Virus record (IMG/VR): IMGVR_UViG_3300043420_000050
Span: 1 to 24,596 of that record
Length of the DNA stretch: 24,596 bases
Origin: a virus
Direction: 5' to 3' (one strand)
Shown here in pieces: positions 9,568-18,117 of the stretch (positions are counted from its first letter, which is position 1; each line of letters opens with the position of its first letter). The notes under the pieces were generated by a model. It ran no database searches and was not told where the DNA came from. It was given only the letters and a program-made list of their open reading frames with translations. Both the position numbers and the translations under genes were made by a program.

Positions 9568-9825
9568 CTATTTATCTTTGTTCTTATGTTTCCAGGCTGT
9601 AGCGTAAGCAATACCTTCTTTATCTTTAGGATAATTCTTTTTGATATGCTTCACCATTCTTTCATACTTCTTACCAGGAGGAGCAACTTCATCTAGTGCC
9701 TCCTCTTTCATCTTCTGCTTTTCAACAGTCTTGAGAACATACTTCTTATGTTTTCTCTTTTCTTCTTTATCTTCTTGGGCACCGTCTTCAATGCTAGGCA
9801 TTACTTCAACGTGTGCCGACTTCAC
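9568..9825 (-). CDS. Small Lys/Glu-rich protein, 85 aa
   Basis: The product is highly charged. Residues 15-45 are a Glu/Lys helix (EDKEEKRKHKKYVLKTVEKQ). The C-terminal part contains YERMVKHIKKNYPKDKEG followed by IAYATAWKHKNK. This MVKHIKK...AYATAWK module is one I remember from several unrelated cyanophage proteins, where it seems to act as a short reusable unit of unknown role. The start overlaps the stop of the upstream EF-hand-like gene as ATGA, so the two are probably made together. There is no catalytic motif. A role in head or internal protein assembly is possible but not shown. Confidence 0.75.
   Translation of the reverse strand: MKSAHVEVMPSIEDGAQEDKEEKRKHKKYVLKTVEKQKMKEEALDEVAPPGKKYERMVKHIKKNYPKDKEGIAYATAWKHKNKDK
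9569..9576 (-). promoter_or_regulatory. Possible late promoter box GATAAATA
   Basis: The minus strand reads GATAAATA, 7 of 8 matches to the late consensus, 25 bases upstream of the 58-aa gene. It overlaps the final Lys codons and stop of the 85-aa gene, so the match could be due to coding alone. Confidence 0.3.
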
Positions 9826-10571
9826 TTTTTTTCTTCTTCGATCTCCTTACTAAGTTCTAAAGACTCTTTCATTTTCTTCTTAGCGCCAATGACAGCAGAG
9901 ATCTTCTTACGACGTGCTAGAAGATATTTGTCAGACTTATCATGATCACCATCGTTATCAACATCCTTATCTTCCTTGCCAACTGGATCTAGTTTCTTTT
10001 CTCCAAGCATTTGACCTTCTGGTTCGTAACCTGCTTTAACACACTTGTCTTTTCCACCTTCGGTGCCAGCATACTTATAACCTTTCCAGCAAGCTTTGCC
10101 GTCAGCACCTTGCTCCTTACCAGCAGCATTCTTTTTCTCAAAGATATAAGTTTTACCATTGAGTTGAAACTCATAAGTTGTGCCAACTAGTTCTTCATGG
10201 AAGACTTCTTCTTTCTTCATATCTTTCTTGCCATCACATTGACATTTTGCTTTGCCACATGACTCACATAATTCTCTTTCCTCACGGGCAACCACCTTCG
10301 TGGTGTCTTTAATCTCTGCTCCATGAGACTGCTTAACGCCAGCACCTGTACGTAGATCAACAGCGGGGTCAGGAGCACCAGCATTTGCTTTGGGGTCCTT
10401 CTTGCTGAAGTCATCTTCTCCACCTTTTTTCTGAAGTTCAGGATATGTTTCTTCTTGTTGTAAGTGCTTACCAAATCCTTCGCCGCCCATCCAGCGACCA
10501 TAAGATTCAATTAAAGCCTGTGAAAACTCATCATTATATTTGAGACTAGTCGTTGGTTTCTGCCTTTCCAT
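9822..10571 (-). CDS. Mosaic protein with a Cys cluster and a dockerin/EF-hand-like Ca-binding loop
   Basis: The product has 249 residues and is very hydrophilic. In order it shows an N-terminal segment with SQALIESYGRWMGGEGFGKH, a Gly/Asp/Lys linker and a tight cysteine cluster LCESCGKAKCQC (C102, C105, C110, C112) that could bind zinc. A small unit ACWKGYKYAGT...GGKDKCVK (C161, C177) follows. Residues 203-214 (DVDNDGDHDKSD) match the 12-residue EF-hand/dockerin loop with acidic residues at positions 1, 3, 5, 7, 9 and 12. A basic helix KYLLARRKKISAVIG and an acidic tail close it. An exact late promoter box lies 31 bases upstream. Cyanophage proteins built from these short units are common and uncharacterised; an internal virion or scaffold role is a guess. 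Confidence 0.8.
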   Translation of the reverse strand: MERQKPTTSLKYNDEFSQALIESYGRWMGGEGFGKHLQQEETYPELQKKGGEDDFSKKDPKANAGAPDPAVDLRTGAGVKQSHGAEIKDTTKVVAREERELCESCGKAKCQCDGKKDMKKEEVFHEELVGTTYEFQLNGKTYIFEKKNAAGKEQGADGKACWKGYKYAGTEGGKDKCVKAGYEPEGQMLGEKKLDPVGKEDKDVDNDGDHDKSDKYLLARRKKISAVIGAKKKMKESLELSKEIEEEKK

Positions 10572-10818
10572 TATTTGTAAAGATACTACTTTTCCTTTCT
10601 TTATTTATAGTCTCTTGAACTTCACGTATATCAGTAACCCAAGCACGAAACATAATACCAGCTTCAGTAATAGCAATAACATAATTAGGACCCGATCGAT
10701 GTACTCTTCCTTTTTCTCCAGTATTGACATTCATCACCAGATCTCCTGGTTGATACACTTCCTTCAATCGAAAGCGTTGTTGATCTGCTGTCTTCTTTAA
10801 ATCTTTAAAATTTCTCAT
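10546..10818 (-). CDS. Small protein with an SH3/KOW-like beta domain, 90 aa
   Basis: A basic helix at residues 1-20 (MRNFKDLKKTADQQRFRLKE) is followed by PGDLVMNVNTGEKGRVHRSG, then YVIAITEAGIMFRAWVTDI. The GD(L/V)V...TG..G.V pattern and short strands suggest a KOW or SH3-like small barrel of the kind that binds nucleic acid or protein, but this is inferred from pattern only. The last 20 residues are polar. The start overlaps the stop of the 590-aa gene as ATGA, so it is coupled to it. Its 3' end holds the late promoter box for the following gene. Confidence 0.7.
   Translation of the reverse strand: MRNFKDLKKTADQQRFRLKEVYQPGDLVMNVNTGEKGRVHRSGPNYVIAITEAGIMFRAWVTDIREVQETINKERKSSIFTNNGKAETND
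10602..10609 (-). promoter_or_regulatory. T4-type late promoter box TATAAATA
   Basis: The minus strand carries an exact TATAAATA, 31 bases upstream of the Cys/EF-hand-like gene start at 10571, inside the end of the 90-aa gene. The exact match, the spacing and the second identical box at 9332-9339 make a functional late promoter likely. Confidence 0.6.
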
Positions 10819-12587
10819 ACACCCATACCCAGAGCATCTTGCATATTATTAGCATAATTTTTAGTTCTCAATTTAATCCACTGCTTATACTGCCCAAAAT
10901 TTCTGGTGCTAACAAAATCATAATACAATCTCATTTCATTATTAATTTCTTTTTGTTTTGTTATAGAGTATAACACACTTTCTTTCAATAGGACTTGTTC
11001 ATAAAATAACTTGTAAAAATTTATTTGAGTTGCTCCAGTTTCATATGAAGTTTGAACAAGAACTCGTTCACATAACAAAGCGACATTATTCAAAGCAAAT
11101 GGATATTTTTTATTCGGACTTCTTTTAACCGCTTCTTCTTCTGTTAAAGAAATACATTCCTTAACTTTTTTGGTTTTACTCTCTTCTTTAAAAAGATTGT
11201 CTGCTATAAAATTTTTTGTTTTCAAAAGCAAACCAGGATCCGATATAAGATTATCCAAAGGTTCAAAATTTTTATTGATGCTGGTAATTTTTTTATCCAA
11301 AATTGTCAATACTTGATTCCATTCATTAACCGACATTGACGAAGTATTCAGCACTTGTTTGAAGTCACTAGTAACTTGTGATTTCTTAGATCCAGCTAAT
11401 AGTTTTCTCAATCCTCTTATAGGATACAGAGTTCCTTTACTACTATATTTGTTATACTCCATAGCAGAAGAAGCTATCATTCTCTGCCCAATCTGAGAAG
11501 ACCTAGCATTTGATGCTATACTTTTAAACCACTTATGTACTTCTGCTTCTCCACCAGGAAATGCTGTCTGGAATTTAACTGTTGCTGTAGAAGATCCTCT
11601 CATCTGTGATTTAACACTAATCTTCAACGGAGTATTTCTATTACCATTAACAGCAATTTTATAATCAATCAATGCTTCGTTAGCTGCTTCTGGCAAATAA
11701 ATTTCAACCTTAGTAATCCTTTCTTCTTCTGGCCACCCAACAACATCTTTTATAATCTTATTGTTAGAAGACAAAAGTTTAGATATTTTTAGAACAGAAA
11801 GAACTTCAAAAAATTCTGACGACATATCTGGTGCCACACCAAGTTTATCATCTAAAGTATTATTATTCCATGAGTTAGAAACCGCCTCAACATAACTCTC
11901 TCTAAGATAGTTACTAGTAAAAATACTGTTAGAATCTGGATGATTAATAAAAGATATAACATTATTATAAAATTGCTGAGGACTTAACCACACATCAGTA
12001 ATTTTTGGACTAACGTCTTTTGGTTTTAATGAAGATAGCTTACCACTACTTTCCGCTTTACCAGCATACTTCAATGAAAAATTGTAATTGATTCCAGTTT
12101 TTTTAGTTACAATGTTACCCTTCTTATCTAAAACTTTATAAGCATAAAATGATTTAATAACTAAAGTTGGGTTTTTGCCACCAGCTAATGTGTGTAACTT
12201 GATCTCTGTTATATTTAATTTATTTTTGATACTTTTAGAATTAACGAAGGAGATCATATCCTGAATGAATGACGCTCTAGGAGTTCTAAAGTTCAAAGCA
12301 GAATATTTTTGATTTCCATTATCACATGTCATCTTGTAATTATATGTGATGGAACTCTTTCCTTTGATAACCGCTTCAATCTCGGTTAGAGTTCCGTCTT
12401 CGTCTACATCCTTACTACCACCCTCTATAATAAAATCAAAACCATTCGTTTCATTGTATTGTTTATTAAAAGCATATCCAGCAGCAACATGAACGAGTCT
12501 CAGCATCCTTCTAATTCTTGTTGCTGGAATATCAATATCAATATAGTTGTCAATGTTTCTTTGTTCTTTTCGTAAGTCAAATGCCAT
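10815..12587 (-). CDS. Large unknown protein, 590 aa, coupled to the ligase/nucleotidyltransferase fusion
   Basis: I do not recognise this protein. It begins MAFDLRKEQRNIDNYIDIDI, with a mixed alpha/beta N-terminal half in which two segments follow a similar beta-rich plan (TEIEAVIKGKSSITYNYKM near residue 80, and DYKIAVNGNRNTPLKISVKS near residue 320). The second contains an acid followed by a strand ending in I-S-V-K-S, which resembles the (D/E)XK region of restriction-type nucleases. This is weak. The C-terminal 200 residues are helical and Lys-rich. Its codon choice looks more AT-rich than gp41 or nrdA, suggesting separate acquisition. The start shares a base with the upstream fusion gene stop (TAATG), so the two proteins are likely partners; the next gene overlaps as ATGA. 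Confidence 0.85.
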   Translation of the reverse strand: MAFDLRKEQRNIDNYIDIDIPATRIRRMLRLVHVAAGYAFNKQYNETNGFDFIIEGGSKDVDEDGTLTEIEAVIKGKSSITYNYKMTCDNGNQKYSALNFRTPRASFIQDMISFVNSKSIKNKLNITEIKLHTLAGGKNPTLVIKSFYAYKVLDKKGNIVTKKTGINYNFSLKYAGKAESSGKLSSLKPKDVSPKITDVWLSPQQFYNNVISFINHPDSNSIFTSNYLRESYVEAVSNSWNNNTLDDKLGVAPDMSSEFFEVLSVLKISKLLSSNNKIIKDVVGWPEEERITKVEIYLPEAANEALIDYKIAVNGNRNTPLKISVKSQMRGSSTATVKFQTAFPGGEAEVHKWFKSIASNARSSQIGQRMIASSAMEYNKYSSKGTLYPIRGLRKLLAGSKKSQVTSDFKQVLNTSSMSVNEWNQVLTILDKKITSINKNFEPLDNLISDPGLLLKTKNFIADNLFKEESKTKKVKECISLTEEEAVKRSPNKKYPFALNNVALLCERVLVQTSYETGATQINFYKLFYEQVLLKESVLYSITKQKEINNEMRLYYDFVSTRNFGQYKQWIKLRTKNYANNMQDALGMGV

Positions 12588-14362
12588 TAGGACATACCTG
12601 CTAGTACTGCTTGGATATACATTTTCTTAAATTCCTTATCGTTCTTAACTGCTTGAGGTAACCCACTTTCAACCGTAGCAAAGTCACCTTCCACAATTGC
12701 TTTACGAACTTTACTGGCAGACATTCCAGATACATCATCAGCATCAGGATCTCTAGTGCCAGCACTCTTGATCTCAACAGTATTCATGTTGTAGTCTTTA
12801 CCATTATACTGTTTGATAAACTGGAATGCTGGTACACGATCAGAACCAACTACAAAGATAGCATCAGTATATCCTTCACTTTCCAACCACTTCAATGCTT
12901 TGATAGCATCACGAATGTCTTCATTTAGGATAAGATTTTTCTGGTGAGAAGGAAACATCGCTTTCATAAGAGTAACTTTCTGAGCAGCGGTCAAAGGGTT
13001 CTTTCCTTTTTTGTCGGTGGTATGACTAGGGAACACGTAGTAATCATTACCAGCAGCATACTCCTTGACTTTATTTATTAGTAGCTCATGACCCGTGGTA
13101 GGAGGATTGAAACGACCGAAGGTGAATACAGCAACCTTGGCACCGTCACCAACAGGAGGACGCCAGGACTTCTCAAGCGTGAAGTTAGCACGAGAGAACT
13201 CAAGACGATCAACGATCTTGACTGCCTTGCCATCAACGATGGCAACGAAACCTTCAGGTTTAGTCACCACAAAGTTGTCACCACTACGAAGGAACACACG
13301 AGTATCGCTGAGACCAGCAAGTTTCAGATTGATCAGGTTCTTGGCATTCGTGAAAGAGTTATACATCACAATGAATGCTTTGAATGCTCGATGGTTGTTC
13401 TCTAGATACGAGATACCGTCAGCAAGAATGTCACGATACTGTGCCTTAGACTTTTCAGTTTTTAGACTCTCAATCTTCTCTATCAGGGACTTCTCAAACG
13501 CTTTCGTGAAACCGCTGATGAAAGCATTTACGTTCGTGATGGTCTTACCTTCTTTCACGTAGGAGTTCGTGAAACGCTTCATCGTATAACCAAGCGTGAA
13601 TTGCTTTCCTGCTTCATGGGAGATCAGTTCAAGAAACTCCTTAGCAGTAGAAGCATTTCGAGAAACAACAGAGATAACAGACTTCAACACACGCTCCTCA
13701 GAAGGTGTGAGACCAGACTTGGCGCTGATGTTATCTACAGTAGCAGTCGCCAGGAATACGTTACGAGTGGATTTGAGGTTGAAGCGATCAACCCCGAAAC
13801 CAGCAGACAAAGTATTTACAGGACCAGTACCGCTGTAATAGGTATGAAATACAGCACCGATCTTAGCAGTATTTACTGCCTTGCCCAGATCGCTATCCAC
13901 AGGCCAAGCATACGTTAGAGTGTTAGGGGTAGCAGTATAGAAACGTTCTCCATCGATAATTTTCGTCTGAACGTCTTCATCCGTAAAGAGAAGGTCTCCT
14001 TGGATAACTCCCTTGATCTTGAGTTCGGGGAAATACTTCAGACAATACTTCAGTTTCTTAGCGAGGTCAGGGATCTCTCCATGGTTTTTATCAATATCTT
14101 CTTCAGTAAAATTGATCTTCGGTTCTTTCTTATTGAATACAGACTTGGTGCCTACAAAGAAGTTACCGCTCTCTGGGTCGATGCCACAAACCACAGCAGG
14201 AGCGCCGTCCCATTTGGTAGTAACCTTTACGTTACCAGTGGGACGACCACCAAGTTCATCTATAAAGTTTTGAATTAGGTCCTTGGAAGCGATGTATCCA
14301 TTATATCCATAATTAATTAACTCATCTTCCAGGTGCTCCAGGTGCTTATTCTGGGTTGCCAT
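12587..14362 (-). CDS. RNA-ligase-like domain fused to a HIGH-family nucleotidyltransferase (NMNAT-like)
   Basis: The protein has 591 residues and two domains. The N-terminal about 400 residues carry covalent nucleotidyltransferase (RNA/DNA ligase) motifs in order: motif I TTKWDGAP with the candidate adenylated lysine K50, motif III-like GVIQGDLLF near residue 117, motif IV-like PEGFVAIV and motif V-like KAVKIVDR. From about residue 410 a second domain begins VAVFTFGRFNPPTTGHELLI, the (H/T)XGH nucleotidyltransferase signature (H425). It ends with GMSASKVRKAI, the ISSTXXR-like motif of NMN adenylyltransferases and relatives. The first domain would seal or adenylate RNA or DNA; the second would transfer AMP or CMP to a small substrate such as NMN. 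The joint substrate is unknown. A late-type promoter box lies 20 bases upstream. Confidence 0.85.
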   Translation of the reverse strand: MATQNKHLEHLEDELINYGYNGYIASKDLIQNFIDELGGRPTGNVKVTTKWDGAPAVVCGIDPESGNFFVGTKSVFNKKEPKINFTEEDIDKNHGEIPDLAKKLKYCLKYFPELKIKGVIQGDLLFTDEDVQTKIIDGERFYTATPNTLTYAWPVDSDLGKAVNTAKIGAVFHTYYSGTGPVNTLSAGFGVDRFNLKSTRNVFLATATVDNISAKSGLTPSEERVLKSVISVVSRNASTAKEFLELISHEAGKQFTLGYTMKRFTNSYVKEGKTITNVNAFISGFTKAFEKSLIEKIESLKTEKSKAQYRDILADGISYLENNHRAFKAFIVMYNSFTNAKNLINLKLAGLSDTRVFLRSGDNFVVTKPEGFVAIVDGKAVKIVDRLEFSRANFTLEKSWRPPVGDGAKVAVFTFGRFNPPTTGHELLINKVKEYAAGNDYYVFPSHTTDKKGKNPLTAAQKVTLMKAMFPSHQKNLILNEDIRDAIKALKWLESEGYTDAIFVVGSDRVPAFQFIKQYNGKDYNMNTVEIKSAGTRDPDADDVSGMSASKVRKAIVEGDFATVESGLPQAVKNDKEFKKMYIQAVLAGMS

Positions 14363-14389: not shown

Positions 14390-14437
14390 TTAGCAGCACC
14401 ACAGAGGACCGTGAGTAGCAGTGGACAGTTTGAAAAG

Positions 14438-14522
14438 CGGAAGGGGTGGGATTCGAACCCACGGATGCTTTCACATCGCTAGTTTTCAAGACTAGAGCCT
14501 TAAACCACTCGACCACCCTTCC
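14438..14522 (-). tRNA. tRNA-Ser (anticodon TGA)
   Basis: The 85-nt cloverleaf can be drawn on the minus strand. The acceptor stem GGAAGGG pairs with CCCTTCC, with discriminator G. The D arm contains GTCGAGTGGTTTAAGGC. The anticodon stem CTAGT/ACTAG holds the loop CTTGAAA with anticodon TGA. A long variable arm (CGATGTGAAAGCATCCG), typical of class II serine tRNAs, and a T arm with GGTTCGAATCC follow. The 3' CCA is not encoded. It starts 2 bases after the stop of the oxygenase gene, so it is probably cut out of the mRNA. It would read UCA and related Ser codons, used often in an AT-leaning phage. Confidence 0.95.
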
Positions 14523-14524
14523 AA

Positions 14525-15199
14525 TTAAAATGAGTTGACTTGCTGTACCTTAGATCTGGGTAAAGGAGGTTTACAAGAACTTCTAAGTTTATATATGAAA
14601 AACACTAAGGTAAGTCTAGGTTCTTCACCAACAATAAAATTAGATTCTTTGTGAAACTCCATTCCAGAATAACAAATCAACCGATTATATACATTCTTAA
14701 CATCAATAGTTTTTTCAAATTGTTCGTGAAATTTTTCTTTAACGTCAAGATAGTAATCAACATCTACAGGCTCATTAGCATATAAAAGATCTCTTGTATC
14801 AGATAGATCACGTATTGTTCTTTCTTTTACTTGCCTGTATATTGAAGTGCCAGCATCAGGATTTGAATTCTTATTCAAGTAGACTAGTCCAGCAAGAGGA
14901 ACTTTCAAATCTTGATGAACCCAACCAGTATTTATTTCGGGTGGTCCTTCATATGGATATATTTTTTGGAAATGTAATGCCATCTCACATTCGACATAGC
15001 AGTTTTCTCCAAAAAATAATCCAAGAATCTTCCTAACAAATTGATCGTAAAACGACGGATTAATATTACGAAGATAGTCAGTTCTAACGCCAGGGTAGTT
15101 ACCAGATATTTTAGAGTATTCCAAAGAGAGTCCGTATTCACGGACTTCATCTGGATTCTCAAAGAAATCATCTACAACTGATGCTGGAATAAACTTCAT
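14525..15199 (-). CDS. Probable 2-oxoglutarate/Fe(II)-dependent oxygenase (DUF6445-like)
   Basis: The product has 224 residues. The middle part contains the facial-triad pattern: TGWVHQD gives H95 and D97, EFHKES gives H183, and EEPRLTLVFF gives R195, placed 12 residues after the second His, where these enzymes bind 2-oxoglutarate. Between them lie PLAGLVYLN and DAGTSIYR, typical of the double-stranded beta-helix. I recall this layout from the DUF6445 group, in which members occur near flavin-dependent tryptophan halogenases in some bacterial clusters; I have not checked this. A halogenase homologue lies two genes upstream. The substrate is unknown. The start overlaps the mazG stop as TAATG, and the tRNA follows at once. 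Confidence 0.75.
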   Translation of the reverse strand: MKFIPASVVDDFFENPDEVREYGLSLEYSKISGNYPGVRTDYLRNINPSFYDQFVRKILGLFFGENCYVECEMALHFQKIYPYEGPPEINTGWVHQDLKVPLAGLVYLNKNSNPDAGTSIYRQVKERTIRDLSDTRDLLYANEPVDVDYYLDVKEKFHEQFEKTIDVKNVYNRLICYSGMEFHKESNFIVGEEPRLTLVFFIYKLRSSCKPPLPRSKVQQVNSF

Positions 15200-15605: not shown

Positions 15606-16997
15606 TTAGATAACGAATTTAGAAAATTTATCTAGGCGAGATTGTTTAGAAGAAACATCTTCAAACGTTTCGAACGTGTCTTCATCTTCAGTATTGAGGA
15701 TGTTGTCTCCGTCCGAATCCTCAACATTATACAGCTTCATCTTTGCTCTGTCAATACCCACTGTAAAACGTCGGAAGTAAGTGGGATCGTTGTATCGATT
15801 CTTAAGTTGTTTAACCATAATCCTACCAGACTGTTCAAGTTCCTCAGTGGAAATGAGAGCAAACATAAAATCTGCTGTGGCAGGAAGACCAAAGGATTCA
15901 GAAGTGTCGGTGAGATCAACGTCACTATTACCAAAACCAGACCTAGTAGTTTGAGTTGCTGATACAACTGGTACGTCATTCTCAACAGCAAGACCCCTGA
16001 GTTCCTCTGCAATTGCTTTAACATACGTATAACTGTTTACGATGTGTCCTTTATATCTGGACGAAGCACAGATATTTAGATAATCGATGAAGATAATATC
16101 TGGTTTGAAATATTTCTTCAGTGACAATTCATTGAGAAGTCCTTTGAAATGACCAGCGTGGGCAGAGGCGGTAGGATACTCTTTGATAATCAAACGACCT
16201 TGAGTTTTCCTACCGATCTCAGCAACTCTAGAAGTAAATATCTGCTCAGGAATAGAACCAATATCTTTGATATTAACGTTGAGAAGGTTGGCATCAATAC
16301 GCTCAGCAATCTTCTCCTCTGCCATCTCCATAGTGATGTAGAGAACGTTCTTACCCTGAGACAAACATGCTGCTGCCATATGACACATAAACAGAGACTT
16401 ACCAACACCAGTGCCAGCAAGAGCAATGTTCAGTGTTTTATTAGGCAGACCACCTTTTGTTACAGTATTGAACTTATCAATATCAAAAGGAATTTTAGAT
16501 TCATCCTGGTGATAATAATCATAACGTTCGCCAGCATTCTCAACATAATCGTGACCTACATGTTCGTCGAACGATACTGCCAGGGCCTCTTGTAGGATTG
16601 CTGGGATAGCGTCCTTCGATACCTGTTGATTGCCTCCGTCCGCAATCTTGATTGATTCGAGTAGAGCGAGATAGATTGCCCTGTCCTTACACCACTTCTC
16701 CGTTGTGTCAAGCAACCAGTTATATTCAACTGCCGTGTCCTCAAACGACTTGAGCGTTTGAACAGCAGATTGATAAGATTCTTCAGTAATATCCTTCCTA
16801 TTTTGAAGGTCGATAATGATAACTTCCGAAGTAGGTACAGTGTCGTAATTGCTGGCAAAGTTCCAGACTTCTTCGTAGATAATTCTTTCATGATAGTCTT
16901 CAAAATATTCAGGTTTTACAAACGGTACTACCTTTCGATAAAAGTCTTCATTGAAGAGAAGATTCCTGAGAATAGTTGATTCAATTTTTTCCGTCAT
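15606..16997 (-). CDS. 41: Replicative DNA helicase, T4 gp41/DnaB-like
   Basis: Gp41 is the hexameric 5'-3' helicase that opens the fork and binds the gp61 primase. The 463 residues contain an N-terminal helical domain (1-150), a linker and the RecA-like motor. Walker A is GTGVGKS at 195-201 (ALAGTGVGKSLFMCH), and Walker B is IIFIDYLN at 301-308. A conserved TQTTRSGF stretch follows, then a basic motif KNRYNDPTYFRRF. The C-terminal tail is acidic (DSDGDNILNTEDEDTFETF). The length matches T4 gp41 (475). The start lies 17 bases inside the end of the halogenase-like gene, so it is coupled to it. Confidence 0.95.
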   Translation of the reverse strand: MTEKIESTILRNLLFNEDFYRKVVPFVKPEYFEDYHERIIYEEVWNFASNYDTVPTSEVIIIDLQNRKDITEESYQSAVQTLKSFEDTAVEYNWLLDTTEKWCKDRAIYLALLESIKIADGGNQQVSKDAIPAILQEALAVSFDEHVGHDYVENAGERYDYYHQDESKIPFDIDKFNTVTKGGLPNKTLNIALAGTGVGKSLFMCHMAAACLSQGKNVLYITMEMAEEKIAERIDANLLNVNIKDIGSIPEQIFTSRVAEIGRKTQGRLIIKEYPTASAHAGHFKGLLNELSLKKYFKPDIIFIDYLNICASSRYKGHIVNSYTYVKAIAEELRGLAVENDVPVVSATQTTRSGFGNSDVDLTDTSESFGLPATADFMFALISTEELEQSGRIMVKQLKNRYNDPTYFRRFTVGIDRAKMKLYNVEDSDGDNILNTEDEDTFETFEDVSSKQSRLDKFSKFVI

Positions 16998-18117
16998 TCA
17001 TTACTCCTTCGTACCAATTTTTAAAGCTCCAGAATGACCACTGCCCATAACTATGTTGAGTAAATAAAGGATGCCTAATTTGATCACAAGAACTAATCTT
17101 TGATTGTTCTAAAAACTTATCAAAAATTTCATCTTCTACATAAAGTTTTTTACAGTAATTCCAAAAAGGTGTATTATATTTTGATCCATTCTGATAATGC
17201 CACAATATAAATCTTTCCAGATTTTTAATGTAAACTCTCATCATGTCTTCAGCTTTCTCAAGCGAAATTTTATTAGCAACGATAGCTTGAAAAGACAGCG
17301 TTGCCCATTGTTGATATGCTCCTATAGAAGTAGATTCCAACGGTTCTAAGAAAAACATTTTATTGCCATTGAATAAAATATTACCTTTATAAAAATTGTT
17401 AGTGACATAATTTTTAAAAGAAAATTTTGATGTAACTTCGACATCAAACATTTCTAGCATGTTTTTCTCTGCTGCATCTGGATTGGTCTTTTTATTATTA
17501 TACAAATAACCAACAGAATATGGGTATGAAGTAGAATCTTCTAGAGTAGGGATAATAAAGCACCACCCATCTGGAGTTGCTACACATCTAGTCCACGGTT
17601 TTGTAAATACTTCTTTTGGTTTTCCAAGAATAACCGAATTAAGTGGATTAACTAAGTCAGTATATCCAGAGTAATCAGATGGTTTACCAGTACAATCAAA
17701 AACATAATCGGAATCTATCTCAGATACCTTTACATTCTCCTGCTCTCTTACTTTAAAATACCCAGAGTTTAAAATTACAGATCTAGTTTCTTTTGGAGAC
17801 AAGTGTAAAGCATGGGTGTCTAAAGGAAAATCGTGGAAAATTGTTTCAGACTTCCCCCAGTTCTCATACAAAATACCTTCTTTGGGAATAGCTTTGATCT
17901 CATTAGTATACCAATTTGTTCCCAAGGTTTGCCACAAAAGTCTAGGTTGAGATGGTATAGTTGCTTGACCAACTAATTCATGTTTCTTATTTGGATCATG
18001 AATCATCTCAACTTCGACGCCATAGGATTTCCCATGATAAGCATAATATAAAGCGGTAATACACCCAGCGTTTCCAGATCCAACGACTGTTATTTTTTTA
18101 TTCGTCGTCAGTGCCAT
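16981..18117 (-). CDS. Short flavin-dependent tryptophan halogenase homologue (PrnA-like)
   Basis: The 378-residue protein has the FAD-binding loop GSGNAG (13-18) and GQATIPSQ (50-57, usually G-E-A-T-X-P). K79 aligns with the catalytic Lys79 of PrnA. E261 lies in FLEPLEST and aligns with the catalytic Glu. Departures are notable: the WXWXIP signature reads GWCFIIP (184-190), and the residue after EST is Ser (ESTS) instead of the Gly that helps bind chloride. It is also about 130-150 residues shorter than classical tryptophan halogenases. It could halogenate an indole, or work as a related monooxygenase. It starts 20 bases inside uvsX and ends 17 bases inside gp41. Its codon use is AT-rich compared with both, pointing to insertion of a foreign gene into the operon. 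Confidence 0.8.

Follow-up and report, generated by a model that had tools for sequence, protein, structure and literature searches.

A putative nuclease-like protein in an exchangeable slot beside the ligase-like/cytidylyltransferase enzyme of marine T4-like phages

The active site of CCGG-family enzymes is spelt S-x-K. These enzymes carry a permuted site, PD...K...D/E, in which no acid occupies the ExK position (PMC6344858). Separately, a cytidylyltransferase (T4-GC190) has been found in purified S-SM1 virions, according to PMC3037559, which also states that T4-GC190 had earlier gone undetected in S-PM2 virions, and Table 3 of PMC10665884 lists ORF154, a cytidylyltransferase detected with 3 peptides, together with ORF155 and ORF156 for S-CREM2 virions. 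Here we analyse a gene that is translationally coupled to a cytidylyltransferase enzyme and encodes a protein with a candidate S-x-K site. It lies on a 24.6-kb IMG/VR fragment, referred to below as the window, by which we mean the whole stretch of DNA analysed. We found no published account of an exchangeable slot of this kind in the open-access papers searched, among which text searches for S-PM2 p140, the relative of this protein in a named phage, and for DUF6267 also gave no match, and no expression or proteome data for p140 were found in the passages of PMC5931967 consulted.

The slot gene and its genomic setting

The gene is located in the replication region of a T4-like phage, where the series uvsX, tryptophan halogenase, gp41, MazG, DUF6445 protein and tRNA-Ser (uvsX and gp41 being named by comparison with S-PM2) is followed by a DUF6267/cytidylyltransferase fusion, the 590-aa gene under study, whose position we call the slot, and a 90-aa SH3-like gene (Table 1). 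Its ATG start codon lies inside the stop codon of the fusion gene (junction CCTAATGG), the final A of the TAA stop doubling as the A of the ATG (...GTCCTAATGGCA), and its 3' end forms an ATGA overlap with the SH3-like gene (GTATGAGA; GTATGAG). The GC content of the slot gene is 31.4% (23.5% at third positions), compared to 43.1% for the upstream fusion gene. The original prediction, made from the sequence of the window, had proposed TAATG coupling, AT-richness and two beta-rich segments, and all three were confirmed in the sequence or in the full-length AlphaFold2 model (pLDDT 87, pTM 0.72), where the beta-rich segments comprise residues 79-89/126-172 and 294-338.

Table 1. Features of the locus, with positions in the window
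Feature	Position	Strand	Basis
Partner enzyme: DUF6267 (ligase-like) fused to cytidylyltransferase-like domain	12587..14362	(-)	Pfam, PHROG
Partner C-terminal tail, residues 546-591, exchanged together with slot gene	12590..12727	(-)	locus-pair identities, correlations
Slot gene, 590-aa PD-(D/E)XK-like protein with N-terminal polymerase-beta-type domain (predicted)	10815..12587	(-)	ORF, models, fold comparisons, invariants
N-terminal domain, residues 18-181, nucleotidyltransferase (Pol-beta/PAP/OAS/CD-NTase) fold, no conserved DxD	12045..12536	(-)	VIA-align; motif-region alignment
Nuclease-like core, residues 245-400: helix 257-273, strands 294-298, 309-313, 321-327	11388..11855	(-)	models, fold comparison, region identities
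Putative active site E258/E261...D308...S324-V-K326; K338 and W353 invariant just downstream	11610..11816	(-)	27-sequence invariants
Helical region between core and last strands, residues 382-536	10980..11444	(-)	DSSP of models
Last beta hairpin, residues 538-559	10911..10976	(-)	models
SH3-like gene, 90 aa, PHROG 4808, overlaps slot gene	10546..10818	(-)	PHROG, overlap
249-aa protein, PHROG 4359; second gene downstream of slot gene, after SH3-like gene	9822..10571	(-)	PHROG search

The tRNA-Ser (tga) at 14437-14522 is directly upstream of the DUF6267/cytidylyltransferase gene. Two other genes of the region, those for the DUF6445 protein (14525-15199; GC 33.5%) and tryptophan halogenase (16981-18117; GC 33.3%), come close to the slot gene in AT content and are perhaps further exchangeable cargo.

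The 590-aa ORF is a real gene, because it has IMG/VR homologues at 25-86% identity and a low dN/dS ratio (0.06-0.10 in five of the six close within-lineage pairs compared; the sixth pair, which is very close, has 0.28). In agreement with the earlier view that the protein lacks a recognisable family, searches of Pfam and PHROG gave no meaningful match (best E 0.19 and 0.22, respectively), PHROG gave no match to a structural protein, and a sequence search of PDB chains gave no match at all. Scans of viral contigs with the slot protein returned 9, 14, 27, 12 and 27 loci, in overlapping sets; no relatives were found in plasmids or in bacterial and archaeal genomes (0 after checking 60 pattern stretches). 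The only named phage in which an orthologue was found is Synechococcus phage S-PM2 (three records of one phage), where p140 (T4-GC 841), annotated as hypothetical only, belongs to the same family, occupies the same place and is 57% identical; a Foldseek search of BFVD with the slot model matched p140 at E 1.8e-71 and further matched A0A7D7J3I6, A0A8S0ICT5 and A0A0E3I1W5.

The partner enzyme matches PF19782 (E 2e-111) and PF01467 (E 2.8e-7) in Pfam, and PHROG 455, 3041 and 395; its KWDG motif is presumably the basis of the 'ligase-like' label. Of the S-PM2 records, the first (AJ630128; L001 6225-8004) has a frameshift that breaks this gene in two, and LN828717 (L037 4001-5776) has it as a single 591-aa CDS.

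Occupants of the slot and the unit of exchange

A scan with the fusion enzyme yielded 68 loci. In the close clade, in which the nucleotidyltransferase (NT) is 76-94% identical to that of the window, we counted 71 loci with a readable junction, which include repeats of single contigs and correspond to 37 distinct slot proteins; 16 distant DUF6267/NT loci (33-46% identity; L038-L044, L100-L102, L105-L110) were removed by hand before the 37-locus counts, and L079, which runs off its contig, and loci whose NT match ends before residue 560 (e.g., L057, L058 and L086) fall outside these counts. At all 37 distinct loci with the fused ligase-like/cytidylyltransferase, a large ORF was present in the slot, and there were no empty slots. 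The start of this ORF overlapped the stop of the partner in 36 of the 37 (20 of the TAATG type and 16 of the four-base ATGA type), the exception being L035, where the junction contains an ambiguous base and the slot ORF starts 83 bases away. The gene 3' of the slot overlapped or abutted in 34 loci, the other 3 being cut by contig ends, and the GC content of the slot gene was lower than that of the partner in 37/37.

By BLAST, the 37 occupants fall into families I (that of the window, 23), II (10), III (3) and IV (1). Comparison of the families with hhalign shows that family IV is homologous to family I over residues 185-345 (probability 96.2, E 2.5e-9), with D..SVK retained, and detects no homology to family I for family II, family III or GC1029. 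The nuclease-like protein at the slot has thus been replaced repeatedly while the cytidylyltransferase enzyme was kept, making the slot a hot spot. A fixed partnership had been expected from the coupling; the coupling is indeed nearly constant (36/37 close loci), but the partner is not, since different protein families fill the slot.

We compared the identities of slot proteins with those of their neighbours in 666 locus pairs, which are not independent, so that the correlations are descriptions and not a source of P-values. Slot-protein identity was correlated with identity of the NT tail (residues 545-591; Spearman 0.82) and, less closely, with that of the NT body (0.55); the partial rank correlation given the NT body was 0.79 for the tail vs. 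-0.15 for the SH3-like protein (528 non-independent pairs from 33 loci). In the pair L023 and L080, the NT bodies are 94.1% identical, whereas the tails are only 40% identical and the slot proteins are without BLAST similarity; nucleotide identity is 96-98% over codons 501-545 and drops to 46% over codons 561-591. The exchanged stretch begins immediately beyond the nucleotidyltransferase motif SGMSASK(V/M)R and runs to where the slot gene ends. Because the tail covaries with the occupant and the SH3-like gene does not, the unit of exchange is the C-terminal tail of the enzyme (~45 residues) together with the nuclease-like gene. The natural reading of this covariation is that the tail docks the slot protein; it could also reflect plain linkage, that is, hitchhiking of the last codons. 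Occupancy, exchange and purifying selection, taken together, match the expectation for a subunit that is required yet can be replaced.

The same counts bear on the view that the slot gene is selfish, either of the homing type or a moron, and sits at the junction by chance. Low GC content and a patchy distribution would fit such a gene, as would an insertion between the nucleotidyltransferase and an SH3-like domain that are encoded in one ORF in HTVC008M. However, the absence of empty slots among the 37 close loci, the exchange of the partner tail along with the gene, purifying selection, and the lack of any LAGLIDADG, HNH or GIY-YIG match in the Pfam search already disfavour this explanation, which we consider very unlikely.

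The original prediction had also suggested that the SH3-like protein could form one system with the two coupled genes. This part did not hold up: the SH3-like protein does not covary with the nuclease-like gene, and, because HTVC008M carries the SH3-like domain fused to the nucleotidyltransferase, the SH3-like gene seems to be a piece split off from the enzyme and not a further partner. Homologues of the SH3-like protein (PHROG 4808, S-PM2 p141, S-H9-2 gp083) are labelled 'ribonucleotide reductase alpha subunit', which is probably a propagated misannotation.

Adjacency of the two genes is maintained in the close clade but not in more distant relatives, in which a homologue or analogue lies upstream of DUF6267, sometimes at a distance of about 6 kb. 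In other cyanophages, two adjacent genes encode DUF6267 and the nucleotidyltransferase separately, with a family II protein (S-H9-2, S-RIM8 and P-SSM4) or a PHROG 3060 protein (S-MbCM6 and S-RIM12) directly upstream of DUF6267. These PHROG 1462/3060 proteins between MazG and DUF6267 (P-SSM4, S-RIM8, S-H9-2, S-MbCM6 and S-RIM12) carry D..S-L-K, and no homology between them and the window family could be detected. In AG-345-F15, a family IV relative precedes the nucleotidyltransferase; in L024 and L036, a family I homologue lies ~6 kb upstream of DUF6267/NT; in L028, an 11-kb fragment, no DUF6267/NT was seen; and in Caulobacter phage Cr30, a family III relative lies 3.1 kb from a cytidyltransferase. 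The loci L100-L102 and L105-L110 (DUF6267/NT 33-41% identity), in several of which DUF6267 and NT may be fused, carry other ORFs in the slot, which, as far as seen, do not belong to families I-IV. One of these, the ORF after the nucleotidyltransferase at L105:6035-7339, matches PHROG 1645, 'virion structural protein' (E 8e-154), a hint that the slot neighbourhood touches the virion.

We considered as distant slot homologues the large ORFs that follow the cytidylyltransferase in S-CAM9, HTVC008M, P-SSM4 and S-SKS1 and dropped them on reading their sequences, and hhalign gave no support for a relation between family I and PHROG 3060 (S-MbCM6), HTVC008M P0007 or P-SSM4 P0006. A DruA-like (DUF4338) gene lies between gp41 and the slot homologue in L024 (L024:4393-5499; PF14236, E 1.8e-8; PADLOC DruA1, E 7.8e-9) and likewise in L027, L028 and L036; between the slot homologue and DUF6267/NT, L024 and L036 carry ORFs that resemble glycosyltransferases or sugar enzymes (named by eye).

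Predicted fold and conserved residues of the slot protein

In an alignment of 27 family I sequences, which includes members with an unrelated N-terminus, 16 of the 590 residues are invariant (P140, G157, P189, E258, F260, E261, L263, P299, L306, D308, S324, K326, T336, K338, W353 and K458). Region 245-400 is more identical than the N-terminal domain in 11 of 11 comparisons (43% vs. 20% for the window and L055), and the C-terminal end (516-590) is kept as well or better in most of the more distant pairs. In the distant members L024, L027, L028 and L036 (25-30% identity), the match begins at about residue 156-196, and the N-termini are different.

For residues 186-590, modelled separately with AlphaFold2 (pLDDT 90.5, pTM 0.84), VIA-align gave Z of at least 2 for 28 of the 626 PDB chains offered by Foldseek. 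The first 19 of the 24 matches listed are PD-(D/E)XK proteins (HinP1I, Z 6.0 and 5.3; MspI, 4.9; 15 EcoRV entries, 3.1-4.1; Hjc, 4.0), and the other five are unrelated, with Z of at most 2.5; all nuclease-fold scores are below the VIA-align guide value of Z = 8, the best being 6.0. Foldseek alone found nothing significant in the PDB with either model (best E 0.64; HinP1I at E 0.77 with residues 186-590), and the fold search gave no confident match to a virion protein. The core of this superfamily has the order alpha-beta-beta-beta-alpha-beta; in the model, helix 257-273 precedes the strands 294-298, 309-313 and 321-327, and the strands at 538-559 come after a long helical region. E258 and E261 are located in the first helix, and D308 and S324-x-K326 on neighbouring strands of the model. 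The score is thus modest, but because no other fold exceeds Z 2.5 among the matches listed and the invariant residues fall on the active-site positions of this one, the models support reading residues 186-590 as a PD-(D/E)XK-like fold with an S-x-K variant of the active site. The original prediction had likened an ISVKS strand (residues 323-327) to (D/E)XK nucleases, and this agrees with the model, in which the strand is within the PD-(D/E)XK-like core and E258/E261, D308, S324 and K326 are all invariant.

An invariant D and S-x-K with a preceding E are present in all four occupant families. When the invariant residues were shuffled over positions, the E..D..SxK pattern, which had first been spotted by eye and was submitted to this procedure afterwards, appeared in 0 of 5000 trials for family I, compared to 6 for family II, 446 for family III and 112 for GC1029 (family IV, with 2 sequences, is outside this analysis). 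At these frequencies, the motif proves little for family III (446/5000) and PHROG 3060 (112/5000).

In the slot family, the acid position of ExK holds a serine (S324), and the site could be inactive with S in place of this E. This substitution and the presence of a cytidylyltransferase in S-SM1 (PMC3037559) and S-CREM2 (PMC10665884) virions would suit a catalytically dead nuclease fold, in a protein that travels in the virion with the cytidylyltransferase and binds nucleic acid, acts as a scaffold or belongs inside the capsid. Such a role appears unlikely to us: D308, S324 and K326 are invariant where nearly all else has changed, T4-GC190 went undetected in S-PM2 virions (as reported in PMC3037559), and no slot protein is named among the virion proteins in the passages of PMC3037559 and PMC10665884 consulted.

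Comparison of residues 18-181 to known structures with VIA-align gave a top Z of 8.8 (rmsd 3.9, 119 aligned), and all 50 matches listed are Pol-beta-type nucleotidyltransferases or their relatives, including five pre-ribosome chains that we take to be Utp22, a degenerate member of the family. Of the motif of RlaP and active Pol-beta nucleotidyltransferases, hG[GS] followed by Dh[DE]h, the GG is retained in part of the slot family only, and strand 79-89 lacks the acidic pair in the 23 N-terminal domains aligned. Having lost these catalytic acids, the domain probably does not act as a transferase.

This domain also bears on a repair module, in which the ligase-like enzyme, the nucleotidyltransferase and the slot protein would trim and reseal nucleic-acid ends cut by host defences, as proposed for RlaP, a Pol-beta family associated with RNA ligases. 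The ligase-like partner, the Pol-beta-type fold of residues 18-181 and the tRNA-Ser next to the operon would fit, and an RlaP-RNA ligase pairing is described for jumbo phages in PMC7824862. The slot protein is like RlaP in that it sets a Pol-beta fold beside a ligase-like enzyme, but differs in having no family match (Pfam gave none to RlaP), no conserved DxD in the 23 aligned domains, and a nuclease-like second half; moreover, L024, L028 and L036 carry a different N-terminus, and so fast a swap is unexpected for repair enzymes. We therefore regard the repair module as quite improbable.

Proposed function and comparison with known systems

The reading that we favour, and hold to be moderately probable, is that the slot gene encodes a variable PD-(D/E)XK-type endonuclease subunit that docks on the conserved enzyme and is used in conflict. 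The putative S-x-K site (E258/E261, D308, S324-V-K326) would bind Mg2+ and cleave the backbone of a nucleic acid; the N-terminal polymerase-beta-type domain, its catalytic acids gone, would probably serve in recognition or contact. The protein would be made by coupled translation with the DUF6267-cytidylyltransferase enzyme and would probably dock on the last ~45 residues of the partner, so that phages may keep the body of the enzyme and swap the tail and the nuclease gene as one cassette. We infer a role in conflict because the slot is constantly occupied and its occupant rapidly replaced; the target would most likely be nucleic acid, either that of rival phages or that of the host, or the protein might counter host defences. 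A search with PADLOC-DB 2.0.0 (E ≤ 0.1) matched 0 models for the slot protein, the partner and four alternative occupants or analogues.

Only tentatively, and with more doubt than belief, do we propose that the locus is a new conflict module, in which an interchangeable nuclease is plugged into a conserved, perhaps virion-borne ligase/nucleotidyltransferase by a matching C-terminal tail, such that marine T4-like phages re-arm by cassette swap and several unrelated S-x-K families compete for the slot. If the fusion enzyme is in the head, then, as a speculation, the nuclease-like subunit might be delivered along with it. With these results, a hypothetical gene of S-PM2 and its marine relatives becomes a testable predicted nuclease, with named residues and a putative docking tail, and slot exchange offers a handle on the purpose of the unexplained cytidylyltransferase/DUF6267 pair.

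Among known systems, Cfr10I, NgoMIV and Bse634I of the CCGG family resemble the slot protein in lacking the acid at the ExK position, the acid having moved elsewhere (PMC6344858); CCGG-family enzymes are not among the listed fold matches of the slot protein, an absence still compatible with a relation in fold, and no sequence relation to them was seen. The closest structural parallels are HinP1I (Z 6.0, rmsd 4.5, 147 aligned) and MspI (Z 4.9, 155 aligned), the best fold matches of residues 186-590, in which D and x-K likewise lie on neighbouring strands. The slot protein is only 8-12% identical to them and differs by its extensive helical region, by the serine that replaces the usual acid, and by an extra N-terminal domain.
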